This document shows, in pieces, positions 10,437 through 33,837 of a stretch of 36,890 bases of DNA; the stretch's first letter is position 1; every line of letters starts with the position of its first letter. Both the position numbers and the translations under genes were made by a program. The notes beneath the pieces are model-generated. The model was not told the DNA's origin. It searched no databases and saw only the letters and a program-made list of their open reading frames with translations. The stretch is from Dehalococcoidia bacterium (lineage in GTDB: Bacteria; Chloroflexota; Dehalococcoidia; Lucifugimonadales; UBA3495): assembly GCA_022451925.1 (NCBI GenBank), contig JAKUNL010000004.1:57532-94421 (forward strand). Direction: 5' to 3'.

Positions 10437-11372
10437 ATGCGCATTTGTTCTTTCTTACCTAGTGCCACTGAGATAGTCTACGATCTTGGCCTTAAGGACT
10501 CGCTTTATGGCGTAACCCACGAATGCGATTACCCTCCAGAAGCTCGGGATAAACCCCATGTGGTTCATAGTGTTTTCGAGGGGCAAGAACCCACTAGCGG
10601 TGAGATCAGTAGAGTAATCGCTGAACGATTGGCTCAAGGGCTGGGCATATATGAGATTGACTCAGATCTCCTCAATGCCGCTAGACCGGACCTTCTAATA
10701 ACGCAGGCAGTCTGCGAGGTTTGAGCCATCTCTACTCGGCAGGTAGCCGAAGTTAGCGTAGGACTTGCCAAAGAACCGGAGATTTTGTCATTGGACCCCC
10801 TCCTTATAGGTGATGTTGTTGAAGACATCAACCGAGTTGGTCGGGCCACCGGCACAGCCACCAAAGCCGCTGAGATAACTGACAAGCTGAATGGAAGAAT
10901 TGAGTCAATAGTCGAGCGTGCGAGAGACGCTGATCACCACCCTAGTGTCCTCCATGTCGAATGGGCTGACCCAGTCATGTGCGCTGGTCACTGGGTGCCT
11001 GAAATGACTGAGATGGCCGGTGGCACGAACAGTTTTGGAGACAAAGACACCGGTACGTTGAAACTGGATTGGGATGAGGTAGTAGCGAGTCAGCCGGAAA
11101 TAATCATTATGATGCAGTGCGGGTTTGATGTTAAACGGTGTCTGGAAGACATGCCACTGATGACTTCCAAAGAAGGCTGGGCGTCGCTACCAGCAGTGCA
11201 GAATAATCGGGTCTACGTAGTGGATGCCGGGGCTTATACTAGCCGCTCGGGACCTAGATTAGTGACTGGGTTAGAAATCATGGCTGAGATGATTCATCCA
11301 GAGTTGTTCTCAGGATTAATACCCGAATCTGGCGCGTTGCGTCTCTTTGGAGATTTGACGAAGGCCAGTTAG
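10437..11372 (+). CDS. BtuF-like cobalamin-binding protein, candidate selenoprotein (UGA at residue 96)
   Basis: Two frame-matched pieces, 10437-10721 (95 codons) and 10725-11372 (215 codons plus stop), are joined by TGA at 10722-10724. Together they give a 311-residue protein, the usual length for the cobalamin-binding periplasmic-binding-protein-like family. Matches run through both halves: N-terminal [12 protein letters not shown] and [23 protein letters not shown] before the [13 protein letters not shown] directly after it, then [40 protein letters not shown] and [21 protein letters not shown]. In relatives I recall, the joint reads Q-C-E-V-C-A-V-S, so the UGA replaces the second Cys of CxxC, giving C93-E-V-U96. 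A hairpin 11 nt after the UGA fits a bacterial SECIS. No signal peptide or lipobox is seen, so the protein may be cytoplasmic. The alternative is a single nonsense mutation (TGC/TGT to TGA). Confidence 0.72.
10722..10750 (+). promoter_or_regulatory. candidate SECIS: UGA codon plus downstream hairpin in the BtuF-like gene
   Basis: The UGA is at 10722-10724. After exactly 11 nt (10725-10735) comes TCGGCAGGTAGCCGA (10736-10750), a 5-bp perfect stem with loop AGGTA. The loop carries G at position 2 and a GGU core as in the E. coli fdhF element. A short CTA/TAG pairing may extend the lower stem. In bacteria SelB reads such a hairpin just after the UGA to insert selenocysteine. Confidence 0.6.
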
Positions 11373-15221: not shown

Positions 15222-15641
15222 TTAGTGTCCGCCGCAACCGCCGCCGCCGCCGCCGCAACCGCCGCCGCCGCCGCCGCCGCAACCGCCGCCGCCGCCGCAA
15301 CCGCCGCCGCCGCCGCTACCACAGGAGCAGCCACCGCCGCAGCCACCAGCGCTGGAGAACATGGGGTTATTAATTACGAACCCAACCTGTCCGCCCAGAT
15401 TCTCGACGTAGTCTATTGTCGCCTCTTCTAGGAAGGGCGCACTATCTGAGTCCATGAGGAAGTTGACTCCCTCTTTCGCCATGACAGTATCGTCAGCCTG
15501 GGTCTCATTTTCCATGGTCAGCATATATTGGAGGCCGCCTGTTTCAGCAGGTATGGCTACTACCCGGAGTGACCCATTAGTTTCGCCCTGTTCTTCCATT
15601 ACTTCTTTGAGCTTCTCTATGGCGAGAGTCGTGACTTCCAT
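15222..15641 (-). CDS. A-type iron-sulfur carrier-like (HesB/IscA/ErpA family) protein with a Gly/Cys-rich tail
   Basis: This 139-residue protein has a first 95 residues that follow the HesB/IscA fold: AIEKLKEVMEEQG, SLRVVAIPAETGGLQYML, ETQADDTVMAKEGVNFLMDSDSAPFLEEATIDYVENLGGQVGFVINNPMF. IscA and ErpA bind Fe-S with three Cys. The first (in GGCSG) is missing here, replaced by an ETGG segment. The usual C-terminal CxC is present as CSC within a longer tail. That tail (about residues 98-139) consists of Gly runs broken by seven Cys in all and ends in His. It may bind metal or a cluster differently, or be unstructured. The DNA of the tail is a GCC/GGC simple repeat. Single-gene unit, ended by the hairpin at 15158-15201. 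Confidence 0.8.
   Translation of the reverse strand: MEVTTLAIEKLKEVMEEQGETNGSLRVVAIPAETGGLQYMLTMENETQADDTVMAKEGVNFLMDSDSAPFLEEATIDYVENLGGQVGFVINNPMFSSAGGCGGGCSCGSGGGGGCGGGGGCGGGGGGGCGGGGGGCGGH
15226..15318. repeat. GCC/GGC triplet-rich low-complexity repeat encoding the Gly/Cys tail
   Basis: On the plus strand this is runs of CCG triplets broken by CAA; on the minus strand they read as Gly codons interrupted by TGC Cys codons. It is a coding simple repeat, open to length change by replication slippage. Apparent alanine-rich or arginine-rich frames across it are artefacts of the repeat. Confidence 0.8.
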
Positions 15642-25955: not shown

Positions 25956-26339
25956 CTATTCGCGGCGTTCCAGAAGTTCGATCCGAACATCCCCGGGAGC
26001 ACGTACAAATGCTATCCGAAGGCCCGGACGGAGATCCTTCGGTTCCATCGAGAATTCTGCCCCTTTTGCCTTCAGGTCTGCAGCAGCAACATCCAGGTTC
26101 TCGACTCGCAGTCCAAAGTGGTCTAAGCCCACATACGGCTCGTGAGGACCGTCTGGTGTAGTGTCTTCTGCCTGAGCAATGAATACCACCAGGCCGTTGA
26201 TATCAATATCGACTCGGCCCTGGCCATCGGATTGGATGCTTTCTTTAATCTCAGCGCCAAACATCTGGTTGAAGTACTTCGCCGTTTCCAACGGTTGTCG
26301 GCTGCGTAGGTGTATGTGGTCGTACGTATAGGTAACCAA
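25956..26339 (-). CDS. VOC family protein (glyoxalase/dioxygenase fold)
   Basis: The protein has 127 residues from a TTG start supported by an AGGAAGTGA Shine-Dalgarno 8 nt before it. The two beta-alpha-beta-beta-beta repeats are visible: YDHIHLRSRQPLETAKYFNQMFGAEI and LDHFGLRVENLDVAAADLKAKGAEF. The metal ligands expected are His in DHIHLR, His in LDHFGLR and Glu in VRIELLE. VOC proteins isomerise, epimerise, cleave or protect small molecules; the exact chemistry is not readable, although methylmalonyl-CoA epimerase and glyoxalase I share this fold. It lies 47 nt after the GrdB-like selenoprotein gene on the same strand and probably shares its transcript. Confidence 0.85.
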   Translation of the reverse strand: MVTYTYDHIHLRSRQPLETAKYFNQMFGAEIKESIQSDGQGRVDIDINGLVVFIAQAEDTTPDGPHEPYVGLDHFGLRVENLDVAAADLKAKGAEFSMEPKDLRPGLRIAFVRAPGDVRIELLERRE

Positions 26340-26386: not shown

Positions 26387-27583
26387 TTATCTGGCTATGC
26401 CGTAGGAGACGGCCTGGGTTTCTTTGTCGTCTACGTTGCTCATATGCTGGCCTAGTGCCATTATCAGGGCGCCCATGGCAGTCTCTGACCAGAACCATTC
26501 GTGGATGTCCCTGTCTGCGACGTTAGGCCGTTGGGCCATCCGAGCTTCGTAATAGAATGCCTTCAGGTCATTTACGCAATGGCGAAGGAACTGGGGGACG
26601 TTAATGTCTTCGGGTCTTTCTTTCATGTCCGTCTCTTCGTCGTTGATGTATTTTTCTATGAACCTGATTATCCCTCGAAACCTACGTTGAGGAACTGAGC
26701 TTGCACCAACAGCAGTGCGGCCGTTATGAGAGGTCACCCACTTCTCATAGTAGGCCCTGAGTGAAGTGAGTTCGTCAGCGGCGTTGAATCCTTTCTCTTC
26801 GGAAGAGTTAGTGGTCTCAGAACCTTGCATCAATATGTCAGGGATCATGTCGTCGGGGAGTTGTTCTAGCACAGGGCCTTGGTCGCGGTTAAGCAGGTCG
26901 AACGTTGCTTGCAAAACCTGGTGTTGGTATTCTGGGTTGTCCGCTTCACCCAGAGCGTTCCCAAAGAAGAATGGAACGGCCAGCATTCTCGGCGGCTTCA
27001 CTCTTTGGGCGTGTTCCTCGATCAGAACGATTCCGGTTGTGGTTATGCCAGATTCTTCGATTATGCGTGCGATCACGCTTACAGCGTGAGAGCATGCCGG
27101 TCAAGTAGGGGTCAGTAGCACCACATCTACGTTCTCGTCTTTGAGTTGGCGGACAACTTCAGGGCCCGAATTATCAATTATCCCCGTTACATCCCTGAGC
27201 GCCCCCATGAACGAGTAATAGTTGTCGGATAGCGAGCCGATTTTACCCTGCTCGACCAATTCCGTGAGACGGTCGATGGGAAAAGTTACGTTGATATCTC
27301 GGTATATGCCTGTATGGTCGAATCCCAGACTGGTATGGGTTTGGATGATGTCTGCACCGCTGGCGCTCCGTGGTATGGTCCGGAATGTAGTGTCACCACC
27401 ATCGTGTGACGCCCGGAAAGGTTTGTCGCCTCGCAAGTGTAGTCCAGCTGTTGTGATCAAGCTTAACTTGCTCTCTGATAGTGGTTTGGCCATGGGTGTC
27501 CACGGTGTGTCGTCGTGCTCCATACACGGCCACATCAGCATGCTTTTTCTCTGAATCTCACTCAAGGCTGATAGCTTAGGCAT
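26387..27583 (-). CDS. GrdB/PrdB-like selenoprotein B family protein (UGA at residue 161), reductase-like
   Basis: The true gene joins two apparent ORFs through TGA at 27103-27101. It has 160 codons, UGA, then 237 codons in the same frame, total 398 residues. The first half has LITTAGLHLRGDKPF, ADIIQTHTSLGFDHTGIYRDINVTFPIDRLTELVEQGKIG and YYSFMGALRDV, all typical of the glycine/sarcosine/betaine/D-proline reductase selenoprotein B family. The joint reads VVLLTPT-U-PACSHAVSVIARIIEESGI, matching the family's TPxUPxC active site (U161, C164). RVKPPRMLAVPFFFGNALG after it is also family-specific. Calling the second part as a separate protein would lose the active site. A SECIS-like hairpin follows the UGA. 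True GrdB works with GrdA/GrdC/GrdD, none of which is in the window, so the reaction is unknown. GGAG precedes the ATG. Confidence 0.88.
27073..27103 (-). promoter_or_regulatory. candidate SECIS: UGA codon plus downstream hairpin in the GrdB-like gene
   Basis: On the minus strand the UGA (27103-27101) is followed by 11 nt and then TCACGCTGTAAGCGTGA (27089-27073), a perfect 6-bp stem with loop TGTAA, G at loop position 2. The spacing is identical to the candidate in the BtuF-like gene and to my recollection of E. coli fdhF. It should direct SelB-dependent selenocysteine insertion. Confidence 0.72.
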
Positions 27584-27712: not shown

Positions 27713-27800
27713 CTAGAACGCCAGTTATAATGAGTCTCATAAAATTTACCTGACTTACCCACACTTGGGTTTTGATCACGAGATATTCAGGATTGATTCA

Positions 27801-29168
27801 ATGGTCGCAACAGTTGTAATTGCGGGAGTCCGCAGCGGCGTGGGCAAGACGACTATCGCCACCGGTATCATGGGTGCTTTAACTCGCCGTGGCCATAGAG
27901 TACAACCGTTCAAAGCCGGACCGGACTACATTGACCCTTCGTACCACAAGTTGGCCTGCGGAGTGCCGAGCCGTAACTTGGACACCTGGCTTTGCGACCA
28001 CCCGACTGTCTTGGAACTTTTCCAACGGGCGAGCTCTGGTTCCGACGTCTCAGTTGTGGAAGGCGTGATGGGTGTTTTTGATGGACGTTCGAGCCTCACT
28101 GAAGAAGGTTCCAGTGCCCAACTGGCCAAGCTTTTAGGCGCGCCCGTTATTTTAATTGCTGATGCGGCTAAGGTGGCGCGCAGCGTAGCGGCTGAAGTCC
28201 TGGGGTTTCAGACTTTCGACCCTGACCTGAATATTGCTGGTGTTATTTTGAACGGTGTGGCCAGCGAACGCCACTTGGAATTTTGCAAGCCGCAGATAGA
28301 AGCCACTACCGGCATACCTGTTCTTGGCTATTTGCCACGAAAAGAAGAATTCATCCAACCGGAGCGCCATCTGGGTCTCATACCCACTGTGGAAGGTACA
28401 GTGGCCAATGACTGGTATGACAATGTGATTAACCAGGTTGAAGCGACTATGGATGTGCCGACTATTCTCAAATTGGCTAATACAGCTAAAACTCCCCCGT
28501 CTTCGCCGAACGTCTATCCGGAAACGCCAATACCGGCTAGGGCAACTATTGCCGTGGCTCAAGATGAGGCCTTCAACTTTTACTATCAGGACTCCCTAGA
28601 TTTGCTGGCGGCATGGGGCGCTGAACTTGCTCCATTCAGTCCTCTTCAAGACGAGACATTGCCATCAGGAGCCAATGGAATCTATCTTGGCGGAGGCTTT
28701 CCCGAACTTTTCGCTGACCAACTTGCAGGCAACAAGCCTATGCACTATGCGATACGCCAGGCAGTTGTAAAGGGCGTGCCAGTCTACGCCGAGTGTGGTG
28801 GGCTGATGTACCTTGGTAAAAGTCTGTCGGACTTGGAAGGTGTAACACATCCGATGTTAGGAATTATTCCTGCTGAGTCGGCGATGTCCCAAAGTAGGCT
28901 GACTTTGGGGTATCGCGAAGTGGAGTCATGTTCTGATAGCCCTGTCCTGCCCAAAGGGGAGAGGGTTAAAGGCCACGAGTTTCATTGGTCTACGCTGGCC
29001 CGGGAGCCGGATAACCAAGAATCGGTCTATAAAATCGTCGACCAAGATAATCGACTCGATGGCTTTCGGACTGGTAGCGTTTGGGCGTCGTATGTCCACA
29101 TCCATTTGGGAAGTCGTATGGGTCTGGCATCCAGGTTCGTGGAGACCTGCTCCTCGGACCGAATTTAA
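27801..29168 (+). CDS. cobB: cobyrinic acid a,c-diamide synthase
   Basis: The protein has 455 residues from ATG 27801 (an in-frame ATG at 27765 adds 12 residues). VVIAGVRSGVGKTTIATGIMGAL holds the P-loop, then PFKAGPDYIDPSYHKLACGVPSRNLDTWL and VVEGVMGVFDG are the CobB/CbiA ATPase motifs. The C-terminal glutaminase domain has IYLGGGFPELFADQL, AECGGLMYLGKSL with the nucleophilic Cys, and KGHEFHWS. The enzyme uses Gln and ATP to amidate the a and c side chains of (hydrogeno)cobyrinate. GGGFPE and the PDYID motif separate it from cobyric acid synthase (CobQ). It heads the late cobalamin operon; the CobB/CbiA distinction depends on whether the pathway is aerobic or anaerobic. Confidence 0.93.
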   Translation: MVATVVIAGVRSGVGKTTIATGIMGALTRRGHRVQPFKAGPDYIDPSYHKLACGVPSRNLDTWLCDHPTVLELFQRASSGSDVSVVEGVMGVFDGRSSLTEEGSSAQLAKLLGAPVILIADAAKVARSVAAEVLGFQTFDPDLNIAGVILNGVASERHLEFCKPQIEATTGIPVLGYLPRKEEFIQPERHLGLIPTVEGTVANDWYDNVINQVEATMDVPTILKLANTAKTPPSSPNVYPETPIPARATIAVAQDEAFNFYYQDSLDLLAAWGAELAPFSPLQDETLPSGANGIYLGGGFPELFADQLAGNKPMHYAIRQAVVKGVPVYAECGGLMYLGKSLSDLEGVTHPMLGIIPAESAMSQSRLTLGYREVESCSDSPVLPKGERVKGHEFHWSTLAREPDNQESVYKIVDQDNRLDGFRTGSVWASYVHIHLGSRMGLASRFVETCSSDRI

Positions 29169-29212
29169 AATCTAGAGTCAATCCGGATCTGGAAAAATAA
29201 TGGAATAAGAGA

Positions 29213-29815
29213 ATGAGCATAAATACACCGGAGAATCAAAACACGGATCCCAAAGAACAGGCAGAACCGGGTCCCCAATCAGTTACTGGTCCCAGAATCG
29301 ACAAGGGGCTGGTAATCGTCAACACGGGTAAGGGCAAAGGTAAGACCACAGCAGCCATCGGGGTCTTGGTGAGGGCTTGGGGCCGCGGCATGAACGTGAC
29401 TATGTTCCAATATATTAAGCATTCCACTGCCAATTTTGGCGAACAGCGCGCTGCCCAGAAGATGGGGATCGAGGTCCGGTCCATGGGCGATGGTTTCACC
29501 TGGCGGTCTAAAGACTTGGATCAGTCTGCAGATCTAGCACGCGCGCAATGGGAAGACAGCAAAGAAGCCATATTGTCGGGGAAATATGACGTGATGGTCT
29601 TAGATGAATTTACCTATCCTATGCACTATGGTTGGATCGAAACTGCGGAGGTAATCGAGGTTTTGAAGGCCCGGCCAGAGATGTTGCACGTTATCATCAC
29701 CGGGCGTAACGCGCCGGAAGAGTTGATGGAATACGCCGATTTAGTCACAGAAATGAATGTGGTGAAACACCCCTATCAACAAGGCATCAAAGCCCAACCC
29801 GGGATAGAATTTTAA
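29213..29815 (+). CDS. cobO: cob(I)yrinic acid a,c-diamide adenosyltransferase (CobO/BtuR type)
   Basis: This 200-residue protein has a disordered N-terminal 30 residues, then [38 protein letters not shown], where the unusual P-loop GKGKGKTT is the CobA/CobO signature for binding ATP in reverse. [18 protein letters not shown] and [42 protein letters not shown] close the fold; the last stretch is the family's C-terminal tag. It transfers the 5'-deoxyadenosyl group to cob(I)alamin precursors. It starts 44 nt after cobB and is followed by cobT, so it is in the same operon. Confidence 0.95.
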
Positions 29816-29862
29816 TCAGACAGATTTTGTATTAACTTTAACCAAGGATTTGATAAAGACTA

Positions 29863-30948
29863 ATGCCTATCTCAGACCTGATAGATCTAACTGTAAATGC
29901 GATAACTCCTCTGAACGAGACCGCAATGGCCGAAGCCGGGGCTAGGCAAGACCAACTGACTAAACCCTTGGGCAGCCTGGGTAGGCTGGAAAAGTTGTCT
30001 ATCCAGATTGCTGGTATCTTTGGTCAGGGGACTCCCCGCATCGGTAAAAAAGTCATTATCCTGGCCGCCGGCGACCACGGTGTGGTATCCGAAGGCATAA
30101 GCGCTTATCCACAGGACGTTACTCCTGCCATGGTGATGAACTTCCTGGGCGGCGGTGCTGCGATCAATGTTCTGTCTAATCATGCCGGGGCCGAGATAGT
30201 GGTTATAGATGCTGGTGTAGCTGCGGACCTACCGGATCACCCCCAACTTCGTTCTGCGAAAATCGGCCGAGGTACCGATAACATATCAATTGGGCCGGCC
30301 ATGTCCCGTAAACAGGCCATCCAGTGCCTTGAGACTGGAATTGAAATCGCTCGCGAACAGATTGCCGCTGGGGCAGACCTGTTTGCGTGCGGTGATATGG
30401 GTATTGGGAACACTACTCCGTCCAGCGCCATAACAGCAGTCGTCACGGGAACTTCTCCTGATATCACTACCGGACGTGGGACTGGATTAGACGATGTGGG
30501 CTTAGCCCACAAGTCGTCGGTCGTAAAGCGGGCCATAGATGTTAACAAACCGGATCCCAAAGATGGACTGGATATATTGATGAAGGTTGGTGGGTTTGAG
30601 ATTGGCGTGTTGGCGGGAGTTTACCTTGGCGTCGCAGCAGCAAATCGGCCTGTTGTTGTTGATGGGTTTATATCTGGAGCAGCTGCCTTGATTGCCCATG
30701 CCGTTGATCCCGACGCAGCGCAAAGTTTCATAGCGTCTCACCAGTCGGTGGAGCCGGGTCACCGTATATCTCTGAATCATATGGGTTTGGAGCCATTGCT
30801 GGATCTACAAATGCGCTTAGGTGAAGGCTCTGGCGCCGCCCTGGCAATGCATATCGTTGAAGCTGCAGCAAAATGCCTCTCCGATATGACGACCTTTGCC
30901 GAGGCGGGAGTCTCAGAGAAAATAGAAGACGACGAGGTCGTCTCCTGA
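29863..30948 (+). CDS. cobT: nicotinate-nucleotide--dimethylbenzimidazole phosphoribosyltransferase
   Basis: This 361-residue protein makes alpha-ribazole phosphate, the lower-ligand nucleotide of cobalamin. QDQLTKPLGSLGRLEKLSIQIAGI is the conserved N-terminus; ILAAGDHGVVSEGISAYPQDVT holds the base-binding site; GDMGIGNTTPSSAI and GTGLDD follow. TFAEAGVSEK near the C-terminus carries the catalytic Glu. Substrate-base choice cannot be told. The gene ends in GTCTCCTGA and the cobS frame is open across its last 75 nt, so translation is coupled. Confidence 0.95.
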   Translation: MPISDLIDLTVNAITPLNETAMAEAGARQDQLTKPLGSLGRLEKLSIQIAGIFGQGTPRIGKKVIILAAGDHGVVSEGISAYPQDVTPAMVMNFLGGGAAINVLSNHAGAEIVVIDAGVAADLPDHPQLRSAKIGRGTDNISIGPAMSRKQAIQCLETGIEIAREQIAAGADLFACGDMGIGNTTPSSAITAVVTGTSPDITTGRGTGLDDVGLAHKSSVVKRAIDVNKPDPKDGLDILMKVGGFEIGVLAGVYLGVAAANRPVVVDGFISGAAALIAHAVDPDAAQSFIASHQSVEPGHRISLNHMGLEPLLDLQMRLGEGSGAALAMHIVEAAAKCLSDMTTFAEAGVSEKIEDDEVVS

Positions 30949-31748
30949 TCGCGTTCTGGCTGACACCGCTCCGGTTGGCGGTGACATTCCTCTCCATATT
31001 CCCGTTGGCACGCGGTTTGGAATGGAGGCCCGAAGATATCAGTAACTCCCGGGCCTTCTACCCGACGATAGGTTTGATCATGGGCCTGCTTTTGGTGGCA
31101 GTAGAAGAGGGCTCCAGCCAATTGTTTTCCGCTCCATTGACCGCTGGGCTTCTGGTCGTCACCATGGCGATTATCACCAGAGCACTTCATCTGGATGGCC
31201 TTATGGATATCTGCGACGGTGTATTTGGCGGGTTTACTCCAGAACGTCGCCTTGAGATCATGAAAGACTCCAGAGTAGGGGCGTTTGGCGTCGTAGGCGG
31301 CGTCACCGTAATTCTACTGAAGTACGGGGCCTTGGTGAGCTTATTGACTTTACCTGAACCAGGAAAGGAGTGGGCTCTACTGCTCTTCCCTGCCATCTCT
31401 CGTTGGACCATGGTGGTCTTGCTGGCGACTTTCCCATATGCTCGTTCTCATGGGCTCGGTTCTCCATTCGACAACAGCGACAGCAAAATCTGCACCTTGT
31501 TGGCTGGTATATCGATTTTGGTCGCGGCCATATTGCTGGGCGGGTTTGGCGGACTGGGCCTGCTGTTTGGTGCAACGGTGATTGCTTGGTTGATTGGTTG
31601 GGCTATGGTCAAGTCTCTGGGCGGCCTCACCGGAGACTCCTATGGGGCAACCAACGAGATCATGGAGGTAGCGGTCATAATTGCTGCTACTGCGCTGCTG
31701 GCCCAAGAATGGTTGGAACAACTGCCATTCCTATTGGATAGGTTTTGA
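30873..31748 (+). CDS. cobS: adenosylcobinamide-GDP ribazoletransferase (cobalamin synthase)
   Basis: This is an integral-membrane enzyme joining adenosylcobinamide-GDP to alpha-ribazole(-phosphate). TPLRLAVTFLSIFPLARG is the usual CobS start, and ALHLDGLMDICDGVFGGFTPERRLEIMKDSRVGAFGV holds the D-G-x-x-D-x-x-D metal motif and the following K-D-S-R-x-G. About six hydrophobic segments follow. The only canonical ATG (30873) lies inside cobT and gives an Arg-rich extra 24 residues; CTG at 30945 overlapping the cobT stop as CTGA would give a more family-like N-terminus, and TTG 30975 is another choice. The start is therefore uncertain. It ends overlapping the cbiB TTG start (TTGA). Confidence 0.88.
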   Translation: MPLRYDDLCRGGSLRENRRRRGRLLIAFWLTPLRLAVTFLSIFPLARGLEWRPEDISNSRAFYPTIGLIMGLLLVAVEEGSSQLFSAPLTAGLLVVTMAIITRALHLDGLMDICDGVFGGFTPERRLEIMKDSRVGAFGVVGGVTVILLKYGALVSLLTLPEPGKEWALLLFPAISRWTMVVLLATFPYARSHGLGSPFDNSDSKICTLLAGISILVAAILLGGFGGLGLLFGATVIAWLIGWAMVKSLGGLTGDSYGATNEIMEVAVIIAATALLAQEWLEQLPFLLDRF

Positions 31749-32698
31749 TATTCTCTGGGACTGATGACTTGTCGGTACTTGCATTGGCTGTGTTGATCGA
31801 CCTAACCCTTGGAGAGCCACCAATGTGGGCACATCCAACAGTCTGGATGGGACGGATGTTGGGCATAGTCGAACAGCGTTTGCCAAAAAAAGGGACACTC
31901 GCTCTTACTTCTGGATTGATGATAGCGTTAGTCTTGCCGTTGATTTGGGGGGTGGCGGCCTATTTCACGGCATTTTGGCTGAAAGAAGTTCATACTATCG
32001 CTTACATCCTCGTGGCTGCAGTTCTCCTTAAAACCACATTTTCAGTCCGGCTATTGCATAAAGAAGCCGCTTTGATACGACGATATCTGGGTCAGGATGA
32101 TATGGAGAAGGTCCGGGCCAGGATGCCGTCGTTGGTCAGCCGGGATCCCTCCGTTCTGACTGCGAAACAAGCCACAGCGGCTACGGTGGAGTCGGTATCT
32201 GAGAACATAAACGATAGCTTTCTGGCTCCGTGGTTGTTCTTTGCCATATTTGGATTGCCGGGGGCTTTTGTTTTCCGAATGATTAACACATTAGATAGTA
32301 TGATAGGCTACCGGGGAGTCTATGAATACCTTGGCAAAGCCTCAGCCAAGTTAGATGACTACGTTAATCTTATTCCGGCCCGGATTGCAGGTCTGCTCCT
32401 GGTCTTCTGTGCTGGATTTCTCCCAGGTCAGAAGCTCTCGAGGGCTTGGATAATCATGTGGAGGCATCATAATCGTACCCAAAGCCCCAACGCGGGTTGG
32501 ACCATGGCTGGCATGGCCGGGTCATTGGGTGTTCGGCTTGAAAAAGACGACCCAGAATTGGGATACCAGCTGGGAGAACCAGATCGGGAGATAGAACCTC
32601 AGGATATAACGCGTACTGTCCAGTCCATGTATTTAGTAGCATTATTGGGCTTGGTGATCTCGTTCGCTGTGGTCTATGTTCGGGGCAGCCTCATATAA
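31745..32698 (+). CDS. cbiB: adenosylcobinamide-phosphate synthase
   Basis: This 317-residue membrane protein (cbiB/cobD in different nomenclatures) attaches aminopropanol (or its phosphate) to cobyric acid. LAVLIDLTLGEPPMWAHPTVWMGRML is the signature N-terminus, and ATVESVSENINDSFLAPWLFF is the E-x-x-x-S-E-N-x-x-D motif. NTLDSMIGYR and LGKASAKLDDYVNLIPARIAG follow, and MWRHHNRTQSPNAGWTMAGMAGSLGVRLEK completes the conserved core. The TTG start at 31745 overlaps the cobS stop by 3 nt, a clear sign of translational coupling. Confidence 0.94.
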   Translation: MIFSGTDDLSVLALAVLIDLTLGEPPMWAHPTVWMGRMLGIVEQRLPKKGTLALTSGLMIALVLPLIWGVAAYFTAFWLKEVHTIAYILVAAVLLKTTFSVRLLHKEAALIRRYLGQDDMEKVRARMPSLVSRDPSVLTAKQATAATVESVSENINDSFLAPWLFFAIFGLPGAFVFRMINTLDSMIGYRGVYEYLGKASAKLDDYVNLIPARIAGLLLVFCAGFLPGQKLSRAWIIMWRHHNRTQSPNAGWTMAGMAGSLGVRLEKDDPELGYQLGEPDREIEPQDITRTVQSMYLVALLGLVISFAVVYVRGSLI

Positions 32699-32712
32699 AG
32701 CAACCATCAAAA

Positions 32713-33837
32713 ATGACTAACCAATCAAATCAATATCCTGTCAGGCCTCGTCCTGTGCACGGGAGCATTGGACCCACCGAGTTGCGAGCCCTCGGCTTGA
32801 ACCCGGAAGATCTGCTCGACTTCAGCGCCAGCATCAGCCCAATAGGACCTCCAGATGGAGTTTGGAACGCCATACGAGGTGTCGACCTGAGCCGTTATCC
32901 AGACCCAGAATGTCTGGAACTGCGAGAGACCATCTCTCGCAAAATTTCAATTACCGACCGACAGATTCCAATCGAGAACGTAATTGTAGGTAATGGTTCC
33001 ACAGAGATATTCCATCTGATCGCTCGGGTTTATCTGTCGAAGCGTCCAGTTCATGGGACCGCAGTGTTGATGACTCCTACGTATGGTGAGTATGAGGGGG
33101 CTTGCCGCTTGGCAGACGCACGAATACTGAAATGCGTTGCCAATCTAGATGGCGATTTCAGATGGGACATTGATTCTGCATCGAAACTAATTGAGGACAA
33201 CAAACCCGATATCGTAATCGTCTGTAACCCCAACAACCCAACTGGAGTGTACTTGTCCCGCCGAGAGATCGAGGCTCTAGCCGATGCAACGCGCGATGCT
33301 GATGGATTGTTGGTGATTGATGAAGCCTACTTGGCGTTTGTGGAAGAGCCATGGGATTCCCTGCCTCTGCTGGATAGACCTGAGGTGATGTTGGTTCGTT
33401 CCATGACCAAAGACTACGCCCAAACAGCCTTGCGTTTGGGCTATGCATTGGCGTCGAAAGATGTGGTGGCACGGCTGAGAGAGTTTCAGCCAGACTGGAG
33501 TGTAAACACCCTAGCCCAAAGGGCTGGCGTGGTTGCCTTGAATGACATAGCTTATCTACCCCGGGCCAGAGCTGCGGTTTTCAGTGCCAAGGCGTATCTA
33601 GTGGATCAGTTGAGGAGCTTAGGATTGGAAGTTCCCGACACAGAAGCCAACTTTATCTTGGTGAAAGTTGGTGAGGCCGCTAAGTGGCGTTCCCTGCTTT
33701 TGGCGAAGAGGTTTGTGGTGCGGGATTGCACTTCGTTCGGTCTGCCGGAATACATCCGGATAGGAATATTACCTATGGGAGATACTAAGAGATTAGCCAA
33801 GGCGATAGTTGAAATCGCCAAGTCAGAAGCGCATTAA
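32713..33837 (+). CDS. CobD/CobC-like PLP-dependent L-threonine-O-3-phosphate decarboxylase
   Basis: This 374-residue fold-type I aminotransferase-like protein has HGSIGPTELRALGLNPEDLLDFSASISPIGPP at its start, which is typical of CobD/CobC; histidinol-phosphate aminotransferases differ here. It then has NVIVGNGSTEIFHLIARVY, VCNPNNPTGVYL (phosphate and PLP pocket), LLVIDEAYLAFVE (Asp/Tyr) and RSMTKDYAQTALRLGY with the PLP-binding Lys. The enzyme makes aminopropanol phosphate from threonine phosphate for CbiB, the preceding gene. Separation from histidinol-phosphate aminotransferase rests on the N-terminus and the neighbourhood. It starts 14 nt after cbiB and ends the cobalamin operon. Confidence 0.85.
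   Translation: MTNQSNQYPVRPRPVHGSIGPTELRALGLNPEDLLDFSASISPIGPPDGVWNAIRGVDLSRYPDPECLELRETISRKISITDRQIPIENVIVGNGSTEIFHLIARVYLSKRPVHGTAVLMTPTYGEYEGACRLADARILKCVANLDGDFRWDIDSASKLIEDNKPDIVIVCNPNNPTGVYLSRREIEALADATRDADGLLVIDEAYLAFVEEPWDSLPLLDRPEVMLVRSMTKDYAQTALRLGYALASKDVVARLREFQPDWSVNTLAQRAGVVALNDIAYLPRARAAVFSAKAYLVDQLRSLGLEVPDTEANFILVKVGEAAKWRSLLLAKRFVVRDCTSFGLPEYIRIGILPMGDTKRLAKAIVEIAKSEAH

Follow-up and report, generated by a model that had tools for sequence, protein, structure and literature searches.

A two-domain PrdB-like selenoprotein of SAR202 Chloroflexota that may act without a pyruvoyl partner subunit

A gene on the minus strand of the window (the whole 36,890-nt stretch of DNA analysed, from a Dehalococcoidia bacterium) encodes a selenoprotein in which a core resembling PrdB of D-proline reductase is followed by a helical domain that canonical PrdB does not have. 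Sequence comparison argues strongly that UGA codon 161 is translated as selenocysteine (Sec), with insertion by SelB guided by a hairpin downstream. No gene for the pyruvoyl subunit that accompanies PrdB was found in the genome, and we lean towards a protein that acts alone as a selenol/thiol oxidoreductase. The features of the gene are collected in Table 1.

Table 1. Positions in the window of the selenoprotein gene, its parts and its downstream neighbour
Feature	Position	Strand	Basis
Whole selenoprotein gene	26387..27583	-	398 codons and a stop, codon 161 being TGA; full-length orthologues exist
In-frame TGA, read as Sec161	27101..27103	-	Kept in all full-length orthologues; Cys in stop-free relatives
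U-P-A-C redox motif, residues 161-164	27092..27103	-	Alignment of orthologues and Cys relatives
SECIS-like hairpin, conserved GU in loop	27073..27089	-	Compensatory changes; covariation 0.249 vs 0.083 in shuffles
PrdB-like alpha/beta core, ~residues 26-237	26873..27508	-	TIGR04483 159.9 bits, PF07355 39.6 bits, structure model
C-terminal helical domain, residues 249-398, missing in canonical PrdB	26390..26839	-	Conserved in long-form clade; no Pfam family; predicted all-helical
Co-directional downstream VOC/glyoxalase-family gene	25956..26339	-	Neighbour conserved only in own genus and one nearby genus

Two minus-strand ORFs, 27583-27101 (160 aa) and 27076-26387 (229 aa), share one frame. With Sec at the TGA (27103-27101) they join into a protein of 398 residues containing the sequence VVLLTPT-U161-P-A-C164. 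This join had been proposed in a sequence-only reading of the window, which gave no strand, and it is borne out: homologues align across both halves, as a single protein. Matches were found in 46 of 50 genomes of the same family, and every full-length match (residues 1-398) has exactly one TGA. The TGA is followed by P-x-C in all 37 distinct full-length sequences, where x is A or L. Over 130 codons around the TGA the window differs synonymously from each of six close relatives at 51-66 positions, so the TGA has not been retained merely through lack of time. Cysteine occupies the exact column of the Sec in ten short, stop-free relatives from Chloroflexota, as C-P-L-C, and the motif is CPIC in the Haematobacter homologue and CPVC in that of Roseomonas.

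The hairpin (TCACGC-TGTAA-GCGTGA, 27089-27073) has its first nucleotide 11 nt past the TGA. The perfect 6 bp stem of the sequence-only reading is present in the window, but only the inner five base pairs are general among the relatives, the outermost sixth forming in 7 of 25 sequences. Compensatory exchanges convert C-G to A-U in 7/25 sequences and G-C to A-U in 4/25; in one exchange a codon goes from His to Asn while the paired base alters a Val codon synonymously. The covariation score is 0.249, compared with 0.083 (sd 0.021) for shuffled alignments, none of 500 scoring as high, and the covariation is abolished when the pairing partner is slid.

The genome encodes SelA (453 bits), SelB (348 bits) and SelD (377 bits), together with a tRNA-Sec having the anticodon TCA. 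One in-frame TGA lies within the selD gene as well (L064; G000:C45:73071-73988, where G000 is the genome of the window), which makes it probable that SelD is another selenoprotein. The assignment to the selenoproteins of the GrdB/PrdB superfamily made from the sequence alone is upheld by the conserved TGA, the Cys relatives, the hairpin and the Sec machinery. Standard gene calling yields two ORFs, which might be taken as the decayed remnants of a pseudogene or the product of a sequencing error; this is extremely improbable and was rejected, given that dozens of separately assembled genomes share the TGA, that stop-free relatives have cysteine in its column, that the downstream hairpin covaries and that the Sec machinery is complete.

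The core of the protein is closest to PrdB. Among the NCBIfam models, residues 26-232 score 159.9 bits with PrdB (TIGR04483), followed by GrdH (53.8 bits), GrdF (48.7 bits) and GrdB (40.1 bits). All of these scores fall under the curated cut-offs; that of the PrdB equivalog is 300 bits, and TIGR01917 and TIGR01918 give 40.1 of 602.2 and 44.6 of 65.45 bits. The Pfam family GRDB (PF07355) matches at 39.6 bits, above its gathering score of 22, over profile positions 210-347 only. Thioredoxin_3 reaches 13.2 bits against a cut-off of 24.8, and fold searches gave no significant match. The earlier description 'GrdB-like' holds at the level of the GrdB/PrdB superfamily, but the core is nearer to PrdB than to the GrdB types (40-54 bits). 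The selenoprotein is homologous to the C-terminal half of GrdB, GrdF and GrdH (of glycine, sarcosine and betaine reductase), with Sec in the same place, but it scores far under their equivalog cut-offs and lacks both the GrdB N-terminal half and a GrdE-type partner. Membership of GrdB was rejected on the model scores and the missing partner subunit.

Annotated PrdB proteins are 35-38% identical to the selenoprotein over approximately residues 28-237, and share with it the core domain and Sec within a UxxC motif. Canonical PrdB is ~240 aa long with the motif UGTC and no helical domain, whereas the selenoprotein has 398 aa, UPAC and a helical domain. Canonical PrdB is usually encoded in a prdA operon (prdA is in the same operon for three of the four annotated examples examined), whereas no PrdA was found for the two-domain selenoprotein. 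When 68 core sequences were placed in a maximum-likelihood tree, canonical PrdB formed one clade (100/99), with UGTC in five of its six members and CGTC in the sixth. A separate clade of 35 rows (99/96) holds the two-domain proteins from SAR202 and from some other Chloroflexota, and the Cys forms of Chloroflexota make up a third (100/99). Judged by these comparisons the selenoprotein is PrdB-like and not a true PrdB, because its score is below the cut-off, its motif is UPAC and not UGTC, it carries the additional helical domain and it lies outside the canonical clade.

The C-terminal ~150 residues constitute an extra domain outside the known family models. No Pfam family was matched by residues 249-398, which contain 21 invariant columns among 15 sequences and are modelled as entirely helical with a mean pLDDT of 86.8. 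In the model of the full-length protein (mean pLDDT 80.5) U161 follows the strand 154-158 and directly precedes the helix 162-177, and a site between strand and helix is usual for a redox-active Cys or Sec. The core has many invariant charged residues besides U and C. Foldseek found no significant match in the PDB, the best E values being 0.026 for the whole model and 1.1 for the helical domain. VIA-align against the PDB gave best Z scores of 8.1 and 6.2 respectively, within the range of that tool for no clear match, and a sequence search of solved structures found nothing relevant.

The same genome contains a second two-domain paralogue (L002; G000:C77:2420-3505), 33% identical, with its own TGA and the motif UPGC. 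A fragment at a contig edge (L003, 1-457) looks like a third two-domain copy. The gene adjoining the paralogue L002 is also found next to a further member of the family in L053.

In proline and glycine/betaine reductases the binding and activation of the amino substrate depend on a pyruvoyl subunit, PrdA or GrdE. PrdA (TIGR04480) was not found in the genome, which is ~90% complete, while a Clostridia control genome gave 1021 bits. PF09338, the family to which pyruvoyl-type component B subunits belong, has no match in this genome, nor in five relatives assembled as one or two contigs (G017, G018, G019, G022 and G049), with a control score of 714 bits. The long-form selenoprotein is present in all five, and because these nearly closed genomes also lack PF09338 they cover the gap left by the ~90% completeness. 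The expectation of the sequence-only reading that the protein would stand alone agrees with these searches as far as the pyruvoyl partner is concerned, as does its view that classical glycine reduction is unlikely. A search of the genome for GrdA gave no match, and the control genomes gave none either. A PF09338 protein is present in three other relatives (G021, G030 and G037), where its gene lies within a few kb of a distinct and distant GrdB-like gene with a TGA, and not at the two-domain gene. These GrdB-like genes (L184, L185 and L186, in G037, G030 and G021 respectively) have an in-frame TGA within the motif T-U-G-T-S-T-R, in which the usual second Cys is thus missing.

The probable function is that of a stand-alone selenol/thiol oxidoreductase, comprising a PrdB-like core and a helical domain and acting without a PrdA/GrdE pyruvoyl subunit. 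SelB and the hairpin 11 nt downstream would insert Sec at UGA codon 161, and the alpha/beta core would supply the U-P-A-C redox pair. The selenolate of U161 may then attack an electrophile; examples would be a small molecule with an activated C-X bond, or a partner that carries an oxidised thiol or a species derived from peroxide. A U161-C164 selenenylsulfide would form next and be re-reduced by a thioredoxin-type donor, while the helical domain would serve in the recognition of substrate or partner. This function is supported by the failure to find PrdA where the control was positive, and by the lack of PF09338 here and in five relatives. The separate two-domain clade, and the predicted position of the Sec between strand and helix, also argue for it. 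It is weakened by the lack of conservation of gene neighbourhoods in the long form and by the ~90% completeness of the genome, and the selenoprotein may have a partner subunit that was not recognised.

An unlikely alternative is that the selenoprotein is the catalytic subunit of a genuine reductase of amino compounds. The pyruvoyl subunit would then be replaced by the helical domain or by an unrecognised protein, and a C-N bond of D-proline, or of some comparable dissolved amino compound, would be cleaved reductively. Such an enzyme is favoured by the homology of the core to PrdB and GrdB, in which Sec occupies the same position, and by the many invariant charged residues of the core. No PrdA/GrdE-type subunit was found, however, the protein has UPAC instead of UGTC and falls in a separate clade, and its helical domain is unlike any known subunit in both sequence and fold searches.

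Among the loci of the long-form clade that were compared, no neighbouring gene is common to all. At the SAR202 loci L056, L057 and L059-L062 a penicillin amidase and a flavoprotein are encoded upstream of the selenoprotein gene. Assignment of a function from the neighbourhood was rejected, as the divergent cobalamin genes and the VOC, metallo-beta-lactamase and penicillin-amidase genes are all local to sub-lineages. An apparent run of cobalamin synthesis genes (window 27765-33837, plus strand) adjoins the selenoprotein gene divergently; the CobB/CbiA-like and CobO-type members were confirmed by Pfam and the remainder judged from sequence, and most of the run is common only to the genus itself.

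The Cys-type relatives, annotated as 'glycine/sarcosine/betaine reductase selenoprotein B family protein' in Chloroflexota and Alphaproteobacteria, have the same core and were not seen beside prdA. They differ from the selenoprotein in having Cys for Sec, a length of ~240-310 aa and, in part of the Chloroflexota, a peroxiredoxin neighbour. Such a gene is found near six of ten Cys-type loci (L143 and L146-L150; flank lengths vary between loci), and is directly adjacent and co-directional at L143, L148 and L150, which are of the CPLC type from other Chloroflexota. This suggests a role in redox defence for the PrdA-less Cys-type branch. Extended to the selenoprotein, it would make the protein the dedicated reductant or peroxidase partner of a peroxiredoxin, with Sec making it fast and hard to over-oxidise in oxic water, and the UxxC motif is suited to thiol-disulfide exchange. 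We regard such a role in peroxide defence as quite unlikely, since a peroxiredoxin neighbour is missing from all the other PrdB-bearing loci examined, among them every Sec-type locus and so every one of SAR202 (flank lengths vary), and the Cys-type clade of Chloroflexota is only ~31-37% identical to the selenoprotein and lacks the helical domain. The peroxiredoxin genes adjoining part of the Cys-type relatives, the one clue to function that gene context offers, do lend support to the broader proposal of a stand-alone oxidoreductase, which is in turn weakened by their restriction to the Cys-type sister clade, with none in SAR202. A further reading is less likely than not: the two-domain proteins could be a separate enzyme family with a new reaction, each a single-polypeptide selenol reductase in oxic seawater whose helical domain replaces the pyruvoyl subunit.

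Two other genes in the window are recorded here. The first encodes a second selenoprotein (10437-11372, plus strand, TGA at 10722-10724), which matches PF01497 at 78.9 bits as a BtuF-like periplasmic binding protein and has the motif C-E-V-U. The ORF with its TGA recurs in most of the 50 family genomes, and one paralogue has CEVC. An IscA/HesB-like protein (15222-15641, minus strand; PF01521, 44.3 bits) has a long C-terminal tail rich in Gly and Cys. BtuF with CxxU is already entered as a selenoprotein family in a review (PMC13188914).

Selenoproteins of PrdB type with a UxxC motif have been known from the sea since 2005, when 42 genes were reported from the Sargasso Sea; PrdB was the third most abundant of the previously known selenoprotein families in those data (PMC1088965). 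In the Global Ocean Sampling data 235 such genes were found, and PrdB was again among the most abundant families (PMC2398784). The Sargasso Sea paper gives the role of PrdB as D-proline reduction (PMC1088965), and the family appears under D-proline reductase in reviews (PMC13188914, PMC9312934). The marine proteins of both surveys resemble the present one in being UxxC selenoproteins of PrdB type, and are abundant in the ocean. The available portions of these surveys treat them as proline reductase and mention neither a two-domain form nor a missing PrdA, and no description of the two-domain form was found in the portions available of the literature on marine PrdB. No paper joining SAR202 with a selenoprotein or glycine reductase was found in a literature search. 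The marine PrdB-type UxxC selenoproteins are therefore already known; what is new is the two-domain architecture, its clade and the evidence of working without PrdA.

In the marine SAR202 lineage a genome has from one to several selenoproteins of PrdB-like type, and standard gene callers break the present gene into two unrelated pieces. Searches of this genome and of five one- or two-contig family genomes turned up no subunit of PrdA/GrdE type, and the two-domain clade is therefore probably mislabelled as 'proline reductase'. If the two-domain proteins do form a separate family, part of the 'proline reductase' counts of marine surveys would represent this other activity. A common marine use of selenium may be one without a known reaction, and a single defined gene, together with its Cys-type relatives, makes the function testable at the bench.
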